IMG/VR virus record: IMGVR_UViG_3300021182_000140
Span: 1 to 46,393 of that record
Length of the DNA stretch: 46,393 bases
Origin: a virus
Direction: 5' to 3' (one strand)
A program made the position numbers and the translations under genes. The notes under the pieces were generated by a model, which had not been told where the DNA came from, did no database searches, and saw nothing but the letters and a program-made list of their open reading frames with translations. The stretch's first letter is position 1. The number at the start of each line of letters is the position of its first letter. Positions 3,804 through 39,618 of this stretch are shown piece by piece.

Positions 3804-4008
3804 TGCCCACTCCTCTTTTATTCTGCTTGTTTTTCGTTTCATACCAATCTACAACTAACTTTGTATCTGCATAATCTGCAACAGCTGCTTTCAGAACTTT
3901 GCTTGCTGCTTTGTCAAGAATATCTTTAAATACTGCAAGCTCTTCCTGAGAGCATTCATCATTAATTCTTATCTCTACGAAAACAACCTGTGTTACATCT
4001 CTTTTCAT
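3790..4008 (-). CDS. Hypothetical early protein
   Basis: 72 aa from ATG 4008 (a TTG start at 4035 would add 9 residues). It has a beta-strand start (VTQVVFVEIRI) and then a long amphipathic helix rich in Ala/Lys. No metal site or transmembrane segment. It follows the large inverted-repeat spacer and overlaps the SprT-like gene. No family recognised. Confidence 0.5.
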   Translation of the reverse strand: MKRDVTQVVFVEIRINDECSQEELAVFKDILDKAASKVLKAAVADYADTKLVVDWYETKNKQNKRGVGNVNN

Positions 4009-4040
4009 ATTAGTTTTGTTTTCCTCTATGCTCAACTCCT

Positions 4041-4078
4041 CCCTTACGAGTAGGAGCAGAGCACAGAAGACGTAAGGG
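4041..4078. repeat. Hairpin in the 4009-4214 spacer
   Basis: CCCTTACG (4041-4048) and CGTAAGGG (4071-4078) form a perfect 8-bp stem. CTCCT (4036-4040) can alternatively pair with AGGAG (4052-4056) inside the loop. Confidence 0.7.
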
Positions 4079-4094
4079 TTTATAATTCTTCTCT

Positions 4095-4191
4095 ATACTA
4101 GTTCGCTGAGAGGAGGATGCAAAGTCGCATATCTTTGCTTTTATGGGGATATACCGCCTGGAAATAATCCTCCTCTCAGCGAACTAATATA
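4095..4191 (-). ncRNA. Putative structured RNA element with a perfect 20-bp stem
   Basis: 4099-4118 and 4167-4186 are perfectly complementary over 20 bp, extended by four more pairs after one mismatch (4094-4097 with 4188-4191). Inside, GCAAAG (4119-4124) pairs with CTTTGC (4133-4138), leaving ~28 nt of mostly unpaired, G/C-containing sequence. The element sits between the MazG-like gene and the next gene of the leftward arm, so it would be read as RNA. No T-run follows, so it is not a classic terminator. The known alternatives are an RNase-III-type processing site, a regulatory leader, or a DNA site such as an origin. Confidence 0.55.
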
Positions 4192-4198
4192 AGTAGTC

Positions 4199-4216
4199 AG
4201 CGGAATTGCTTCCGCT
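4199..4216. repeat. Short hairpin at the end of the MazG-like gene
   Basis: AGCGGAA and TTCCGCT form a perfect 7-bp stem around a TTGC loop, overlapping the TAG stop of the leftward gene. No T-run follows on either strand, so termination is doubtful. Confidence 0.6.
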
Positions 4217-4469
4217 AACCATAATATCCTCTGTCTCGATTCTTCTTGACAGTGGCTGTTTTTATTTCTTCAAGAGTGAATATCGTGTTCCTCTCGAAGT
4301 ATTTGCGAACCAGAGTTTCTGCAGCGTGAAGAATGTCTACGACTTCTTTTGCTTGACGCTCTGGATCTTTTTCTTCTTCGAACTCTGAACACTCCTCACG
4401 AACTTTATTGAGGTAGTGTTTCAGTTCCCAGTGCTTGACTGGATCTATTAATGGAAAGTGAAATTCCAT
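4215..4469 (-). CDS. MazG-like nucleoside triphosphate pyrophosphohydrolase
   Basis: 84 aa from ATG 4469. The helical core contains EECSEFEEE and EVVDILHAAET, the E..E plus E..D pattern that binds Mg2+ in all-alpha NTP pyrophosphohydrolases (MazG / phosphoribosyl-ATP pyrophosphohydrolase-like). Phage members cleave nucleotides such as dUTP, or (p)ppGpp as proposed for MazG, to feed or protect phage synthesis. AGGAG 8 nt upstream supports this start. An open extension to 4607 covers alternative hairpins and is better read as leader. It is the first gene of the leftward arm. The C-terminal ~30 residues are divergent. Confidence 0.65.
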   Translation of the reverse strand: MEFHFPLIDPVKHWELKHYLNKVREECSEFEEEKDPERQAKEVVDILHAAETLVRKYFERNTIFTLEEIKTATVKKNRDRGYYG

Positions 4470-4702
4470 TTTGTCGTCTCCTATTAAGTTGTCAACGAAC
4501 TTCTTTTCCTCTACGACATTCCGAGGTATACTTAGGAGAGAGCTATTCCGAACTTTCCCTCCTCTAACTCTAATTAAACTGCGGAATGGGTAAATAGTAA
4601 AGCCCATTCTGGCGAATAGGAGTTGATAACTCTAAAATCTTCATAAATTCCCTTTATTTACACAATTCTTTACTTATTGGCAATTTCGTTTCCAAACTTT
4701 AT
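4470..4702. promoter_or_regulatory. Divergent control region between the two genome arms
   Basis: Leftward and rightward genes diverge here. It holds the palindrome at 4620-4632, the box CCCTTTATTTACACA (4650-4664), and a leftward leader with a perfect 7-bp hairpin (GAATGGG 4584-4590 / CCCATTC 4603-4609). Part of that hairpin (CGGAATG at 4582-4588) could instead pair with CATTCCG further down the leader. Competing hairpins suggest a regulated leader. Promoter elements are not clear to me on either strand. Confidence 0.5.
4620..4632. promoter_or_regulatory. Palindromic operator-like site 1
   Basis: GAGTTGATAACTC, with arms GAGTT/AACTC around GAT. The core AGTTGATAACT recurs at 5282-5292 and, inverted, at 6188-6198, always in non-coding DNA. 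It is probably the site of a dimeric DNA-binding protein. Confidence 0.55.
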
Positions 4703-5005
4703 ATGGCTCTTTTAGAGAAAGAAATTCAGGCTCAAATTATAGAATACTTAAAGTTGAAAAGAATATTTTTCTGGAGAAATAATATCGGAGCTGGACAATT
4801 AAAAGGAGGAAGATTTGTACGCTTTGGAGTTCCTGGTGCACCTGACTTGTTTGTATTGAAAGAGGGAAAGCTCATCGGAATAGAAGTAAAGCGTGCTAAG
4901 ACCAAATTATCACCATTGCAAGAGGAATTTGGAGCAGAGATGCAGAAGAATGGAGCTACTTATATTGTGGCACGAGACTTGGATGATGTGATGGCAGTTC
5001 TATAA
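4703..5005 (+). CDS. VRR-NUC domain nuclease
   Basis: 100 aa, a complete minimal VRR-NUC (PD-(D/E)XK superfamily). GVPGAPDLF (42-50) carries the conserved Gly and catalytic Asp, IEVKRAK (60-66) the E-x-K, and Q73 the family's conserved Gln. Stand-alone VRR-NUC proteins in phages are thought to resolve branched DNA such as Holliday junctions or flaps. It is the first gene of the rightward arm. No Shine-Dalgarno site is visible. Its TAA stop is followed directly by the tRNA-Pro gene. Confidence 0.9.
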   Translation: MALLEKEIQAQIIEYLKLKRIFFWRNNIGAGQLKGGRFVRFGVPGAPDLFVLKEGKLIGIEVKRAKTKLSPLQEEFGAEMQKNGATYIVARDLDDVMAVL

Positions 5006-5078
5006 CAGTCTATCGCCTAATGGTATGGCATCTCATTTGGGGTGAGAAATGATGGAAGTTCGATTCTTCCTAGACTGA
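5006..5078 (+). tRNA. tRNA-Pro (anticodon TGG)
   Basis: A cloverleaf can be drawn: acceptor CAGTCTA/TAGACTG, D-stem GCC/GGC, anticodon stem TCTCA/TGAGA with loop TTTGGGG (anticodon TGG), and T-stem GGAAG/CTTCC around TTCGATT. Its first base directly follows the stop codon of the VRR-NUC gene. A full CCA end is not encoded. Confidence 0.92.
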
Positions 5079-5084
5079 CAAGTT

Positions 5085-5243
5085 ATGAACCAACAAGATT
5101 CAATCTGTCCATTTGGTGAAAAGAAATGATATGCGAGTGAAAGACGAGCAAGAGAGGTCAGGAAACATCTCGTAATAAACAAATTGAGGATTTACAAGTG
5201 TCCCAACTGCTACAAATTCCATCTCACAAAACGCTTGAGCTAG
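5085..5243 (+). pseudogene. Zinc-ribbon protein gene interrupted by an in-frame TGA
   Basis: The frame from ATG 5085 to TAG 5243 reads as a typical small phage zinc-ribbon protein (C..G.KK.Y.SE..A...., then LRIYKCPNCYKFHLTKR) but has one TGA at 5127-5129, codon 15, between KK and YASER. The reading frame and the family pattern continue perfectly on both sides, so a single base change or a recoding event explains it. TGA ends about ten other genes here, so it is not reassigned genome-wide. It could be a nonsense mutation, a sequencing error, suppression, or (less likely) selenocysteine. Confidence 0.65.
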
Positions 5244-5280
5244 ACCTTTCCAAAACTCAAAAAACAGTTTGTAATTTCAG

Positions 5281-5293
5281 AAGTTGATAACTT
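5281..5293. promoter_or_regulatory. Palindromic operator-like site 2
   Basis: AAGTTGATAACTT, a perfect palindrome around the central base triplet. It lies 3 bp upstream of a TTGACT -35 element, a position suited to repression or activation of that promoter. Confidence 0.6.
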
Positions 5294-5296
5294 TGC

Positions 5297-5325
5297 TTGA
5301 CTGTTTTCAGATAATCAGGTTTAAT
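5297..5325 (+). promoter_or_regulatory. Predicted sigma70-type promoter
   Basis: TTGACT (5297-5302), exactly 17 bp, then TTTAAT (5320-5325). It would transcribe the hairpin-rich spacer and then the genes from 5693 on. It sits next to operator-like site 2. Confidence 0.55.
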
Positions 5326-5692
5326 TGAAGAAGAAAGACAGTTGCATGTTCGAAGAGTCTGAAGTCCTGGGAACGGACTTTTCGAACAGACAGTTGTCTG
5401 TAGTTGGTATAGTGAGGGCTAACTCACACTATAGCTATACTAGCTCCCTTAAGTGTGAGATGTCAACTTTCGAGAGTCGTTGCTCTTCAGAGTAATCTTG
5501 AAATTGAAATCACTTCAGCGTAGTTTAGATTCCTGAACGCTGAATATCCACTGAATGCGTTTTCACGCCTCTTCAGATAGTCTGGGATGAGATGTTGCAG
5601 AGAGAAAACTGCCAGAAAAAACATCGAAACCAAGCATCTACTGTGTAGGGCTTTTCTTTCTCAATATCTTGCTTTCAGAGCAAAACAAATTT

Positions 5693-5866
5693 ATGGAATG
5701 GAGTCGTTTAAAACACAACAAATGTCCTAATTGTGGCAATTATCCACTCGTACAAGAAGTGAATGTTATGAAATGTCCTGTTTATTCAAAAGGTTGTACA
5801 TTTGTTATTTCAAAACAAAAATATTTTAATATAGCAGGAGCAATACCAAAAATAAAGACAAAATAG
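5693..5866 (+). CDS. Small zinc-ribbon protein
   Basis: 57 aa from ATG 5693 (an in-frame start at 5669 would add 8 residues). MEWSRLK is a typical start for a common family of tiny zinc ribbons with a CPNCG pair and a second pair, here a CPVYSKGC-type spacing, followed by ISKQK. The family's role is not known to me. It ends in TAG 6 bp before the next gene. Confidence 0.65.
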   Translation: MEWSRLKHNKCPNCGNYPLVQEVNVMKCPVYSKGCTFVISKQKYFNIAGAIPKIKTK

Positions 5867-5872
5867 ACAAAT

Positions 5873-6106
5873 ATGAGAAAGCAGCGTAGTGCAATTAGGT
5901 TGAAGAATCTGAGATCTGGTGAGGTTGATTTAGAAATTCTTGTGGCACATGACTATCTGGTTGAACAGCTGCAAACATATCACTTTCGCATAAACAAGAG
6001 ACTTGATGTGTGGCCAAGCTCCAAAGTCTGGATGGATGTGAAAACGAGGAGAAAGGGGAAATATGATGACCTCATAGATTTTGTTGAGACTTATTTCATG
6101 GTATAA
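5873..6106 (+). CDS. Hypothetical protein
   Basis: 77 aa, basic, with an N-terminal KQRSAIRLKNLRSGE stretch and a helical middle. No cysteines or membrane segment. It lies between the zinc-ribbon gene and tRNA-Thr, whose first base is 4 nt after this gene's TAA. No family recognised. Confidence 0.5.
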   Translation: MRKQRSAIRLKNLRSGEVDLEILVAHDYLVEQLQTYHFRINKRLDVWPSSKVWMDVKTRRKGKYDDLIDFVETYFMV

Positions 6107-6109
6107 TAA

Positions 6110-6182
6110 GGGATGGTAGCTCAAGTGGCAGAGCAGCTCATTTGTAACGAGCAGGTTGTGGTTTCGAGTACCATCTGTCCCT
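6110..6182 (+). tRNA. tRNA-Thr (anticodon TGT)
   Basis: Acceptor GGGATGG pairs with CTGTCCC including G-T pairs. D-loop AGTGGCAGAG, anticodon stem GCTCA/CGAGC with one A-C mismatch, loop TTTGTAA (anticodon TGT), and T-stem GTGGT/ACCAT around TTCGAGT. The palindrome AAAAGTTATCAACTTTT starts 2 bp after it. CCA is not encoded. Confidence 0.92.
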
Positions 6183-6184
6183 CT

Positions 6185-6201
6185 AAAAGTTATCAACTTT
6201 T
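6185..6201. promoter_or_regulatory. Palindromic operator-like site 3 / hairpin after tRNA-Thr
   Basis: AAAAGTT-ATC-AACTTTT, a 7-bp perfect palindrome containing the core of sites 1 and 2 in reverse orientation. It could also act as a weak terminator for the tRNA transcript, since it ends in TTTT. Confidence 0.55.
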
Positions 6202-6217
6202 ATAGTATTCAAAGCCC

Positions 6218-6246
6218 TTTACTTTTACACAGAAAGACCTCATAAT
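6218..6246 (+). promoter_or_regulatory. Predicted promoter
   Basis: TTTACT (6218-6223), 17 bp, CATAAT (6241-6246). It overlaps the box CCCTTTACTTTTACACA (6215-6231), which closely matches 4650-4664 at a similar distance after the palindrome. Confidence 0.45.
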
Positions 6247-6263
6247 TATCAGTAGGATCTTTG

Positions 6264-6389
6264 ATTGATATTTTACAGCTCTGTGAAACTCAACTTCACC
6301 GTGCATGTCTTTCAACAGAAGACATAAACAGACAACTCAGCTTCTGCTTCCAAGGCTAAGAACTTTGGACAGAGCTGTAAGCTATCAAT
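6264..6389 (+). ncRNA. Structured 5' leader with a long stem ending 3 nt before the next ATG
   Basis: ATTGATA-TT-TTACAGCTCTGT (6264-6284) pairs with ACAGAGCTGTAA-GC-TATCAAT (6369-6389): 12 bp, a 2-nt imperfect step, then 7 bp. It encloses ATGTCTT/AAGACAT (6305-6311/6319-6325) and a weaker hairpin near 6337-6361. The stem would cover the ribosome landing area of the gene at 6393, so opening it could control translation. Confidence 0.6.
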
Positions 6390-6392
6390 ACC

Positions 6393-6707
6393 ATGTCAGT
6401 AAACAAAGAGGCAGTACAAGAAATTTATAAGCGTGATGGATTCCAGTCAGCAGGAGTGTATCTCACCACTCATGAGAATATGTCATCACAAGAGGCTATA
6501 GATTACTTGCACAATCAAATACTTTTTAATGCAAATTCAGCAGCATCTCCAACATATAATGTAAGCAAGGAAAATGGTTTCTTGCAATTTTATCATGAAT
6601 GCTGCAACACAGTAGATGAGCTTGATGATTATGTCCATGAATGCAATACAACGATTTCTCAAAAAGTAAAGAGTTGGTTCAAAGAAAAATATTATGGACA
6701 TCAGTAA
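6393..6707 (+). CDS. Hypothetical protein
   Basis: 104 aa, helical, with a hydrophilic start and three cysteines in the last third (HECCNTV, HECNTT). No recognised motif. It begins 3 nt after a long RNA stem (6264-6389), which suggests translational control, and overlaps the next gene by 14 bp. It is the first of a short operon that leads into the terminase genes. Confidence 0.5.
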   Translation: MSVNKEAVQEIYKRDGFQSAGVYLTTHENMSSQEAIDYLHNQILFNANSAASPTYNVSKENGFLQFYHECCNTVDELDDYVHECNTTISQKVKSWFKEKYYGHQ

Positions 6708-35263: not shown

Positions 35264-35558
35264 TAAATTGTCTGTCTAATTCTGTCAACTCATACTGAAC
35301 AGAATCTAGGAATTCTCTGTTGATTGCAAGCATTTTTCTGACATATGGTTCAGTTCTTAACTTTCCATGTATCTGAATATGACACTTATAATTGCACAAC
35401 CATGCACAGTTAAGAATTGAACTCTCTTCATCATGTCCTTTTATTCCTCTTCCAACTATATGATGCTGAGCACTGGCTGTGTTCATTCCACACAGGAAGC
35501 ATCTCCAGCTATCCTCAAACAGATATCTTAGTTCCTTCGGAAAGCTGTTTGTTCCCAT
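35235..35558 (-). CDS. HNH endonuclease
   Basis: 107 aa. CFLCG, AQHHIVGRG, then CNYKCHIQIHG is a compact HNH with its zinc pairs. It lacks NUMOD3 repeats, unlike the other HNH genes here. It overlaps the end of the polymerase gene by 44 bp. It may be a homing gene or, given its place in the replication block, a recombination/packaging nuclease similar to NinG. Confidence 0.75.
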   Translation of the reverse strand: MGTNSFPKELRYLFEDSWRCFLCGMNTASAQHHIVGRGIKGHDEESSILNCAWLCNYKCHIQIHGKLRTEPYVRKMLAINREFLDSVQYELTELDRQFIEKYKKYYD

Positions 35559-38500
35559 TCTTTTTTTCTTGTTCTTCCTGATAAATTCTTAAGTTCATGA
35601 CTTTGTTCACAAAAAACATCCTGATTCCACTTCCCATTTTCCCACGAAGCATGATAACATCACCTGTCTTACTCTGCTCAAAGATTAGGTTTGCATACTC
35701 TGGATACTTGAGATGACTCAATCTGCAAGTTAAGAAGTCGGAATCATCCTCAATGACAAAGTTTGCGAATCTGTACTGCTGTATTATTTCATAGTCAACA
35801 TTCAACTGCCAGTCATTCCTACCACTCCTTGGTTTGTATTTTGTGAACTGGTCAAATGTCATATATGGTGATACTCCTGCTTTTGGTTTCATGATATGAA
35901 TGATGTTGTACTTCTTCATGTCAATAGACTTTCCTTTTGTTGCACTGACTTCTCTTGCATCTCTCATGTTCTTGTCATATACAATTCCATAGAGAACAAC
36001 ATCAGGCTCATTGAATCCTGTCTTCATATCATTCAACTTCTCTATTGCAGTTGGAAGATCTTTGAATGGATGAGGATGATTAGCCAGTATATATGGCAGC
36101 CATTTCTTTGTTATCTCAAAGTCAATATCCCAAGGACACAGATTGAATCTGTCTTCAAATGATATTATACCTTTTGAATATGGTGGAGAACTTGTTCCAA
36201 ACAGATCCTCAACACAAGAGGCTTTCTCAATAGAGTCAAATGCTCCCAAGTCAATCAATAATTGTCTTACTTTCTCAGAAACTGTGTGTCCTTTCGGTAG
36301 ATGAATTGTGTCCTGATAATTCTTATATGGCTGATGTCTGACCAGCTTATCAGCTGCTCCATCGCCAATGCCTTTGACGTCTTTGAAGCCTATGCGTAGT
36401 CCTTCATCATCAATAGTAAACTCTTGCTTGCTTCTGTTGATGTCTACTGGAAGAACTTTGAATCCCTCACGCTTGTACTCTTTAATTATTTTCTTTCTCT
36501 TGTCTTCCATTTCTGTGATGGCTAAGATTGATGCATAGAACTCAATTGGGTAGTGAACTTTTAACCACATTGTCCAATAACTGATGAATCCATAACTGAT
36601 GGAATGACTGTTGTGGCTAACAATACCATTTGCAATAAATGAAGGTCTAGACTTGTCCTCCATTTCTATGTCATACACTTTCTCTTTTTTAAGTTTCTTT
36701 ATACTTACAATTTTTTCAAATAGAATAGGAAATCCCTTTTGCCACACTTTTGTTCTTCCTATTTTATATTCTGCCATTTTGTGGCAACTAACACAAAGCC
36801 ATTCAAGTATTGAATTTGGAGCATTCCTAGTAACATGGTGCACTTCCATTCTATCAAAAAGAGCATCACAATGTTCACAATTCTTTCCAATGTTTAATTC
36901 TTTGAATCTCTTAACTTCATAGGTTGAGCCATCTGTAGAATCTCCTGCTCCTCCAACTCTTCCTTTTCTCCACCCTTTTCCAAGAGCTCCTTTTGAAATA
37001 TATTTAGTTTCCTGATAGCCTCCATTGACTGCAATAAAATCACCTTCAGAGAACTTGTGAAGTTTTTTGAATCTATTATTAGACAAGAATCTATGATTAG
37101 AAGTAGCTTTAATCTTCTTTCCAGACTCTGTTGTTATTTCAAACACTTGATGAACTCCTTTGAAGAATACATCTTTTATTCTTGATGGTCTTATCTGTCC
37201 ATCCAAATCCATTCCCAATGTATTCATTTTCTTGTATGCATTTGGTTGTAACTTCCATTTTGGAGATGCATAACCTTTGTTTTTGAAAAGATTTTCTATG
37301 GTTATTTGTTTTCCAACAAATTGATTAGGATTGCAATTTTCAATTAAAGTATCTCCTGTTATACATTTATTGAAAGCCCACGAACCATAGGAGCACATCT
37401 CATCCCAGATCTTGCTTGCCACTTCTTCAGACAGTCCGTGTCCCAAGGCTCCTGGCATAAACTTGGCTCTAAAGCTGTTGAAAGCCTCAACTCCCAAGGA
37501 TCTGGACATGTTCTTACGGATTGCTGAAGTATCTTCCCAGCTCATGTCTCCAATCTCACGCATGATGCGCATAACCTGCTCTTGGTAAATAACCACTCCA
37601 TATGTTCCTCCAGTAATTCCTTCCATAATCTTATGGACATATGTTACTTTTTGTTTACCAGATCTGCGCATGATGTACTCTGTTGTGTTTCCAGAGTTCA
37701 ATGGTCCTGGTCTTGCCAATGCTGAAACTGCAGACAAGTCTTCAAAGTCTTTTGGTTTTATTTGTCTGCTTACCTGATTCACAGCCTGACCATCAAACTG
37801 GAACACTCCGAAGAGTTTCTCTTCTCTGAATCCTTTATATGTCTTCTTATCATCAAGAGGAAGAGTGTAAGGATCTATTATTTTATTATGGCGTTCTTTG
37901 ATGTATCTCATTGTCTTTGAGACAACAGAAAGAGTTGAGAGTCCTAACACATCAATCTTCAATAGACCAATATCTGTCACATCCTTGTAGTCCATACTAA
38001 GGACAAATTCATCCTTCACTTTGTAGAGAGCACAGAAGTTTGTGATTGGCTCGTTACTGATTACCACACCTGCAGCATGCTGTCCCATTTGACGATACTG
38101 TCCTTCAAGGTCTATTGCGTACTTTAACTCTGGATAGAGCTTGAGAGCCTCTGCTGGTTTTGTAAATGTTTCATTGGTAAATGTATCAGCCAATGTGAAT
38201 CCTGCACGAGAGTCTCCTCCAGAGCGTTCAAGAACCAGACCTTTAATCTCATCAATCACAACAAATGGAATCTTGAATACTCTTCCAATGTCCATGAGAG
38301 CAGACTTTCCTTTGAACTCTGCAAATGTAGGAAGTGTTCCAACCTTGTCATAACCATACTTCATTTGCAAGTATGTCTTCACTTCATGGCGTCTTGCATC
38401 TTCGAAGTCAATGTCAATGTCTGGTAGGTCTGCACGATTGATGTCTATAAAGCGTTCAAAGATGAGTCCATAGACAATAGGATCGACTTCTGTTATTCTT

Positions 38501-39618
38501 AAAGCACAGCAAGCCAAACTTCCTGCAGCAGAACCACGACCAGGACCAACCAGAATGCCATTGTCTTTGCTCCAGTTTATCAAGTCATGAATAACTAAGA
38601 AGTAGTCAATGAATCCTTTTTTATTTATTAGGTCAAGCTCATATGCAAGTCTTTCAATATAAACTGGATCTTCATTCTTTCCCATACGAGCAAGTCCTTC
38701 CATGCATTTATGAAAGAGAAAATCGCTCTTCATTGACTCTTCCATTGGGAAGCTGATTGGCTTTGCTGTTGGGAACTTGAAGTCAATGCTCTCTGAAATC
38801 TTCACAGTATTATCAAGAGCCTCTGTGAAGTCATAGTCAGGATGGCACTCGTTAAGAGACTCCTCCATTTCTTTTCTACTCTTCAAGTGAAAGTCTTCTT
38901 GGTCAAAGTGCCAATGGCTTGGATTGCTCATTTCATCGTTTGATTGAATACAAAGAAGAACTTCCTGTACTTTGGCTTGCTCTTTCTTTACATAGTGGCA
39001 ATCATTTGTTGCAACCATCTTGACTCCCTTCTTCTTAAGAGTCTTTTCATATATCTCAATAGCCTTTTGATAAACAGGAAGTCCTTCCTCAAACATGATA
39101 GGCTGCATTTCAAAATAGAAGTCGTCAAGTTTCTCATGAAACATCAAGAACTCTTCTGTTGCTTCTTTCTCTCTTCCTTTCTTTATCTTGTCCATGAATG
39201 GAGATGACAAGCAGCCAGAGAGAACAATCAATCCTTCCTGATGGTCAAAAAGATCTTGGTATGTGATTCTTGGCTTATAATAAAATTGTTCTGTCCATGC
39301 TCTTGTAACCAGCTTCATCAAGTTCTTGTAGCCTTTGTTGTTCTTTACTAGAACAATCATGTGATTGTAGTCTCTTTCTCTAATATCATTCTTGTCCTTC
39401 ACTATGTACATTTCACAGCCTAAAATTGGCTGAATACCAGCTTTGTTACATCCTTTATAATGCTTAAAATGGCTACTCACATTACCATGATTTGTCGTAG
39501 CAAGTCCTGGCTGTCCAAGTTCAACAGCTCTTTGTATGTACATTGCAGGAGTTCCATATCCATCTTGAAATGAATAGTGGTCATGCACATGCAAATGAAC
39601 AAAGTTATCAGGTTTCAT
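35515..39618 (-). CDS. dnaE: DNA polymerase III alpha-type (DnaE) replicative polymerase interrupted by an intein
   Basis: 1367 codons; 1115 aa after intein removal, a normal DnaE size. The N-terminal PHP domain starts HLHVHDHYSFQDGYG. The palm has GRGSAAGSL and DIDIDFED (about 398-406), the catalytic aspartates. A helix-hairpin-helix (IGFKDVKGIGDGAADKL) and a late OB-like region follow. Residues 752-1003 are the intein, inserted between FNK and SHS. The polymerase would replicate the phage genome. No helicase or primase was recognised in the window. Confidence 0.95.
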   Translation of the reverse strand: MKPDNFVHLHVHDHYSFQDGYGTPAMYIQRAVELGQPGLATTNHGNVSSHFKHYKGCNKAGIQPILGCEMYIVKDKNDIRERDYNHMIVLVKNNKGYKNLMKLVTRAWTEQFYYKPRITYQDLFDHQEGLIVLSGCLSSPFMDKIKKGREKEATEEFLMFHEKLDDFYFEMQPIMFEEGLPVYQKAIEIYEKTLKKKGVKMVATNDCHYVKKEQAKVQEVLLCIQSNDEMSNPSHWHFDQEDFHLKSRKEMEESLNECHPDYDFTEALDNTVKISESIDFKFPTAKPISFPMEESMKSDFLFHKCMEGLARMGKNEDPVYIERLAYELDLINKKGFIDYFLVIHDLINWSKDNGILVGPGRGSAAGSLACCALRITEVDPIVYGLIFERFIDINRADLPDIDIDFEDARRHEVKTYLQMKYGYDKVGTLPTFAEFKGKSALMDIGRVFKIPFVVIDEIKGLVLERSGGDSRAGFTLADTFTNETFTKPAEALKLYPELKYAIDLEGQYRQMGQHAAGVVISNEPITNFCALYKVKDEFVLSMDYKDVTDIGLLKIDVLGLSTLSVVSKTMRYIKERHNKIIDPYTLPLDDKKTYKGFREEKLFGVFQFDGQAVNQVSRQIKPKDFEDLSAVSALARPGPLNSGNTTEYIMRRSGKQKVTYVHKIMEGITGGTYGVVIYQEQVMRIMREIGDMSWEDTSAIRKNMSRSLGVEAFNSFRAKFMPGALGHGLSEEVASKIWDEMCSYGSWAFNKCITGDTLIENCNPNQFVGKQITIENLFKNKGYASPKWKLQPNAYKKMNTLGMDLDGQIRPSRIKDVFFKGVHQVFEITTESGKKIKATSNHRFLSNNRFKKLHKFSEGDFIAVNGGYQETKYISKGALGKGWRKGRVGGAGDSTDGSTYEVKRFKELNIGKNCEHCDALFDRMEVHHVTRNAPNSILEWLCVSCHKMAEYKIGRTKVWQKGFPILFEKIVSIKKLKKEKVYDIEMEDKSRPSFIANGIVSHNSHSISYGFISYWTMWLKVHYPIEFYASILAITEMEDKRKKIIKEYKREGFKVLPVDINRSKQEFTIDDEGLRIGFKDVKGIGDGAADKLVRHQPYKNYQDTIHLPKGHTVSEKVRQLLIDLGAFDSIEKASCVEDLFGTSSPPYSKGIISFEDRFNLCPWDIDFEITKKWLPYILANHPHPFKDLPTAIEKLNDMKTGFNEPDVVLYGIVYDKNMRDAREVSATKGKSIDMKKYNIIHIMKPKAGVSPYMTFDQFTKYKPRSGRNDWQLNVDYEIIQQYRFANFVIEDDSDFLTCRLSHLKYPEYANLIFEQSKTGDVIMLRGKMGSGIRMFFVNKVMNLRIYQEEQEKKNGNKQLSEGTKISV
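36610..37365 (-). mobile_element. Intein in DnaE with an HNH homing endonuclease
   Basis: 252 aa. It starts with Cys (CITGDTLI, block A), has a block-B TSNHRF, and ends VYDIEMED ... FIANGIVSHN, with Ser as the first residue after it: all splice-junction residues are present, so it should be active. An HNH core (CEHC ... MEVHH ... CVSCHK) lies at about 910-955 of the precursor. It sits in the conserved FNKSHS motif, three to four residues from where cyanobacterial split DnaE inteins insert (before CFNKSHS). Confidence 0.93.

Follow-up and report, generated by a model that had tools for sequence, protein, structure and literature searches.

An in-frame TGA in a small phage Cys/His gene, probably a recent nonsense mutation, and a candidate structured noncoding RNA beside it

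A small frame of a phage is interrupted by a single in-frame TGA, raising the question of whether this codon is recoded or the gene is broken. We analyzed a complete IMG/VR virus record of 46,393 bases (the window) and compared it as a whole with its nearest relative, IMGVR_UViG_3300048581_000054 (G001). A preliminary description had placed a broken zinc-ribbon gene, carrying one TGA, between two tRNA genes and beside a hairpin-rich spacer; the frame coordinates and both tRNA genes were confirmed (Table 1).

Table 1. Features of the interrupted gene, its surroundings and the spacer RNA in the window
Feature	Position	Strand	Remarks
VRR-NUC-like nuclease gene	4703..5005	+	syntenic in G001 (L005:4846-5151)
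tRNA-Pro(TGG)	5006-5079	+	directly after VRR-NUC stop, 5 nt before ATG of broken gene
Interrupted frame	5085-5243	+	ATG 5085, in-frame TGA 5127-5129, TAG 5241-5243
5' part	5085..5126	+	ATG and 13 codons (MNQQDSICPFGEKK); conserved Cys8, Lys13
In-frame TGA, codon 15	5127..5129	+	sense-codon column in homologues
3' part	5130..5243	+	YASERRAREVRKHLVINKLRIYKCPNCYKFHLTKRLS, then stop; remaining family residues Y16, A22, Y37, C39, C42, H46, L47, T48
Promoter-like TTGACT-17-TTTAAT	5297..5325	+	before spacer RNA; -10 without A2
Candidate structured noncoding RNA	5332..5660 (ends approximate)	+	conserved in G001, L005 ~5510-5900
H-type pseudoknot	5406..5459	+	stem A 5406-5412/5435-5441, stem B 5423-5430/5452-5459
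RNA hairpin	5514..5544	+	loop strongly conserved, 1 compensatory change
RNA hairpin	5551..5576	+	2 compensatory changes
RNA hairpin	5591..5625	+	1 compensatory change
Terminator-like hairpin	5632..5660	+	hairpin 5632-5653, then TTCTTTC; absent from consensus scan listing
tRNA-Thr(TGT)	6110-6183		tRNA prediction

Identity of the interrupted frame

Translation of positions 5085-5240 gives MNQQDSICPFGEKK and YASERRAREVRKHLVINKLRIYKCPNCYKFHLTKRLS, separated by the single in-frame TGA. Because another in-frame TGA lies upstream at 5076-5078, ATG 5085, which begins 5 nt past the last base of tRNA-Pro, is the sole ATG able to start the frame; past the interruption, the frame offers neither ATG nor GTG as a start, just a late TTG. 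Searching the PHROGs profiles matched the frame to phrog_15216 with an E value of 4.9e-6 when TGA was read as Arg, 7.3e-5 when it was read as X and 9.5e-5 for the part after TGA alone. The zinc-ribbon pattern reported earlier on both sides of the TGA was borne out, as the family residues are intact 5' and 3' of the stop: all residues conserved in phrog_15216, from C8 to T48 (Table 1), are present. The uninterrupted reading frame that goes with membership of this family is cut by the TGA at codon 15, and frame 5085-5243 is a broken copy, not a working phrog_15216 member.

Scanning IMG/VR with the family pattern yielded 88 stretches. Besides the window itself, our alignment of 79 distinct sequences holds 77 homologues and the G001 copy, 78 in all. 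The homologues compared are distant, roughly 27-44% identical to the interrupted frame, and near-identical records may be omitted from the collections searched. A profile of the 78 viral homologues, with the window excluded, detected a single significant locus in the six-frame translation of the window (E 2.7e-11; next best 0.16). Together with the independent PHROGs match, this points to the relic of a real gene, not to a chance match. The family of tiny Cys/His proteins to which it belongs is widespread in phages, with dozens of homologues across IMG/VR. The phage codon-usage model does not favour this short frame (-0.33 per codon), so that its status as a gene rests on homology. The pattern C...K..Y.....A ... 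Y.C..C..[WF]HLT is shared with phrog_15216, a family of unknown function, and with related small phage Cys/His proteins, including an unannotated one of Thalassomonas phage BA3 and the C-terminal part of Arthrobacter phage Atuin gp210; unlike its phrog_15216 relatives, the window copy carries a nonsense codon, located at a variable column. A single-sequence scan of IMG/VR for protein relatives confirmed none, a strict DNA pattern for close homologues had no match, and an alignment-guided scan of prokaryote genomes revealed one distant Erythrobacter homologue, with a sense codon at the TGA column.

AlphaFold2, run on an alignment of 41 sequences, predicted fairly confidently (mean pLDDT 82.6) a strand-helix-strand-strand fold in which residue 15, the TGA position, falls in the first strand. 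The C-x2-C-x3-H knuckle of the family protein may provide Cys and His ligands for putative zinc binding. Among predicted viral structures, those nearest to it belong to uncharacterised phage proteins (best E 0.0094), and a fold search of the PDB with the predicted structure gave no meaningful match.

Possible readings of the TGA codon

TGA had been described as a normal stop elsewhere in this DNA, excluding simple code reassignment. We agree: TGA is the stop of 13 of the 60 window genes, including gene ends 39615 and 43456 where it lies in ATGA overlaps, and a genetic code with TGA reassigned was rejected on these grounds. The only tRNA genes are those for Pro(TGG) and Thr(TGT), neither of which is a suppressor, and no tRNA-Sec was found among the phage tRNA genes. 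Reassigned stop codons are found in phages, for example in the code 15 crAss-like phages (PMC9523058), and a stop codon within a coding frame is what the present locus has in common with them; unlike in those phages, one gene is affected, TGA serves as stop in 13/60 genes and no suppressor tRNA is encoded.

Alignment of homologues had been put forward as the test that could refute recoding. At the TGA column, a sense codon is present in each of the 78 distinct viral homologues and a stop in none, Arg being the commonest residue (28), followed by Gly (9), Ser (8), Thr (7), Val (6), Cys, Lys and Ala (4 each), Pro (3), Tyr (2) and Gln, Asn and His (1 each). Since the IMG/VR scan pattern covered the downstream motif only, this set is not biased against stops. 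Arg also scores best at this column in both the profile of the 78 homologues and the PHROG profile, reaching in the latter 27.5 bits vs at most 24.8 for the ten alternatives tested, X included. A scan for TGA-TAY plus the family motif returned 11 matches and no homologue with an in-frame TGA: seven are family homologues with TGATAY out of frame (FDT/YDT codons), one (L015) has the TGA in frame within an unrelated frame holding other stops, and three are unrelated sequences. Recoding of TGA 5127-5129 is not supported, as these comparisons provide nothing positive in its favour. Among the options listed by the preliminary description, nonsense mutation, which it had named first, stood; selenocysteine did not, and a conserved TGA, which would have spoken for readthrough, was seen in 0/78 homologues.

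Programmed or leaky readthrough, yielding a full-length protein of 52 residues peculiar to this phage lineage, would explain why the frame is fully kept on either side of the stop. The weak GGTC stem noted earlier about 25 nt downstream does exist and could be enlisted for such a function, but it is not stronger than many shuffles (z -1.1 to -1.9), and TGA is absent at the column in all 78, albeit distant, homologues. In E. coli, TGA followed by T is a strong termination context, and T is the base next to TGA 5127-5129; furthermore, the 14-residue product has no evident use. We consider readthrough improbable. Selenocysteine insertion could draw on the presence of Cys (TGC) at the column in 4 of the 78 distinct homologues, G001 included; however, residues vary at this column and most are not Cys, both profiles rank Cys lower than Arg, the local fold is weak, the phage carries no tRNA-Sec, and an Rfam scan of 4000-6400 gave no match to a SECIS family at E up to 5, making this reading barely credible. 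Equally hard to believe is a shorter product from an internal start past the TGA: the in-frame TTG at 5184, for example, would leave RIYKCPNCYKFHLTKRLS, holding the C-x2-C-x3-H knuckle only, but in-frame ATG and GTG codons are missing after the TGA and the stub would lack two elements of the family fold, its first strand and its helix.

The TGA might also reflect one base misread in sequencing or misassembled, or a minor allele that entered the consensus, the true gene being intact. A one-base lesion that leaves all conserved residues in place, in a metagenome-derived record, is what such an error would look like. Yet in a comparison restricted to real genes, the 28,575 window bases that align to G001 coding sequences contain no other premature stop or frameshift; two G001 alignments contained stops, both upstream of the start codon. 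Several frameshifts surfaced in G001 in the same comparison, indicating that it can detect errors. With no further lesion in these 28.6 kb, it is unlikely that the window sequence is error-prone in general; the 95% upper bound of about 3 lesions per 28.6 kb translates into at most about 0.016 expected in the 156-base frame. We regard an error as an unlikely origin of the TGA.

We favour, as the likely explanation, a nonsense mutation at 5127-5129 in a dispensable small phage gene, recent and probably derived from an Arg codon. A common small phage Cys/His gene would have been inactivated recently by this one codon: translation from ATG 5085 would end after 14 residues, 5' of the helix and the knuckle, and therefore no folded protein would be expected, while the intact remainder of the frame suggests that the lesion is young. 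That the other conserved residues are intact is something a functional readthrough gene would also show. The TGA itself carries little weight, since it would represent a dispensable small phage gene seen shortly after inactivation; the evidence from homologues closes a tempting claim of recoding.

The slot behind the VRR-NUC-like gene

In the window, the slot runs from the VRR-NUC gene through a tRNA and a small ORF to the structured RNA. In G001, the VRR-NUC gene is followed by tRNA-Gly (L005:5155-5228), a different intact ORF (5242-5471) and then the spacer, and the G001 homologue of the zinc-knuckle protein is located elsewhere, beside thyX (L008:1495-1659); it is ~32-40% identical, depending on the alignment, and has Cys at the TGA column. 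By this comparison, the slot behind the VRR-NUC gene appears to be a variable cassette, and because in G001 it carries another tRNA and another ORF, loss of its small gene is plausibly tolerated.

Aligning the two phages also revealed apparent frameshifts of G001 in otherwise conserved genes, at about 914, 3492, 10630 and 21843, as well as a duplicated end region in which about 47-49 kb resembles 0-3 kb; these are probably sequence or assembly errors. Elsewhere in the window, positions 4094-4191 form an intergenic, near-perfect 25-nt inverted repeat with a 48-nt loop (fold z -7.5), for which no counterpart was found in G001, and the minus strand encodes a DNA polymerase III alpha-like protein of 1367 aa (35515-39618) in which, judging by eye, an intein seems to be present (CITGDTL ... 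VSHNSHS).

A candidate structured noncoding RNA in the spacer

The spacer that had been called hairpin-rich is indeed so and proved to hold a conserved RNA. Positions 5297-5660, whose counterpart in G001 is L005 ~5478-5900, fold more stably than their shuffled versions, with z -3.1 in the window and -4.2 in G001, and the RNA core at 5508-5612 is 83% identical to G001 vs about 66-79% for most coding matches. From the sequences of the two phages we drew eight helices, one pseudoknot included; both sequences form every one of the 46 pairs, and 8 double changes are compensatory, whereas slid controls had 32-38% of cells paired and zero double changes. As the structure was drawn from both sequences, the control on percentage paired is partly circular, which does not apply to the double changes. 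In the shuffle test of pairing, 1 of 500 shuffles reached the observed values. The pseudoknot accounts for 4 of the double changes, of which stem B has three and stem A one. The predicted structure is well supported, from two phages.

The promoter-like signal in front of the RNA, at whose matching place G001 has TTGACT-17-CATACT, is suggestive only, by its resemblance to the consensus; likewise, it is by consensus resemblance only that the hairpin at the 3' end may be a terminator, G001 having at the same place a hairpin of different sequence followed by TTTT.

A second conserved element is found at 6264-6389 (G001 L005 6236-6340), directly 5' of ATG 6393, with a long outer stem (TTGATATTTTACAGCTCTG / ACAGAGCTGTAAGCTATCAA) and a diverged interior. 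It is preceded by TTTACT-17-CATAAT (TTTACT-17-TTTAAT in G001) and resembles a 5' leader or small RNA. The motif AAGTTGATAACTT occurs in two perfect copies of opposite orientation, at 5281-5293 and 6187-6199, so placed that one copy shortly precedes the promoter-like site of each RNA, and these copies are a possible operator; allowing up to 2 mismatches, the motif counts 7, a number reached in 5 of 100 shuffles.

Rfam yielded no family for the spacer 5297-5660, either at gathering thresholds or at E up to 5, apart from tRNAs and chance-level matches, and a Blast search of the spacer RNA against phage and plasmid records returned no match. Scanning IMG/VR with the RNA pattern recovered G001 only, plus a match within a coding gene of L112 that was rejected as chance, and a covariance model run over 45 loci and 34 viral records identified the window and G001 only. 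GOLLD and ROOL RNAs occur near tRNA genes, as does the spacer RNA. Like these large ornate RNAs (PMC12286853), it would be a structured noncoding RNA in phage or mobile DNA; unlike them, it is about 330 nt long, differs in architecture and has no Rfam match at E up to 5.

We think it very likely that the spacer encodes an undescribed class of ~330-nt phage noncoding RNA. It would comprise an H-type pseudoknot and three conserved hairpins, have its own signals resembling a promoter and a terminator, and keep its place in two phages between the tRNA/small-ORF cassette and the genes that follow. Our guess is that it is transcribed from a promoter of its own and interacts with the host or acts in regulation. 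Being conserved above most neighbouring genes, showing covariation that includes the pseudoknot and belonging to no curated family, the spacer RNA matters more than the TGA and is a concrete candidate for a new phage RNA with a role in regulation or in interaction with the host.
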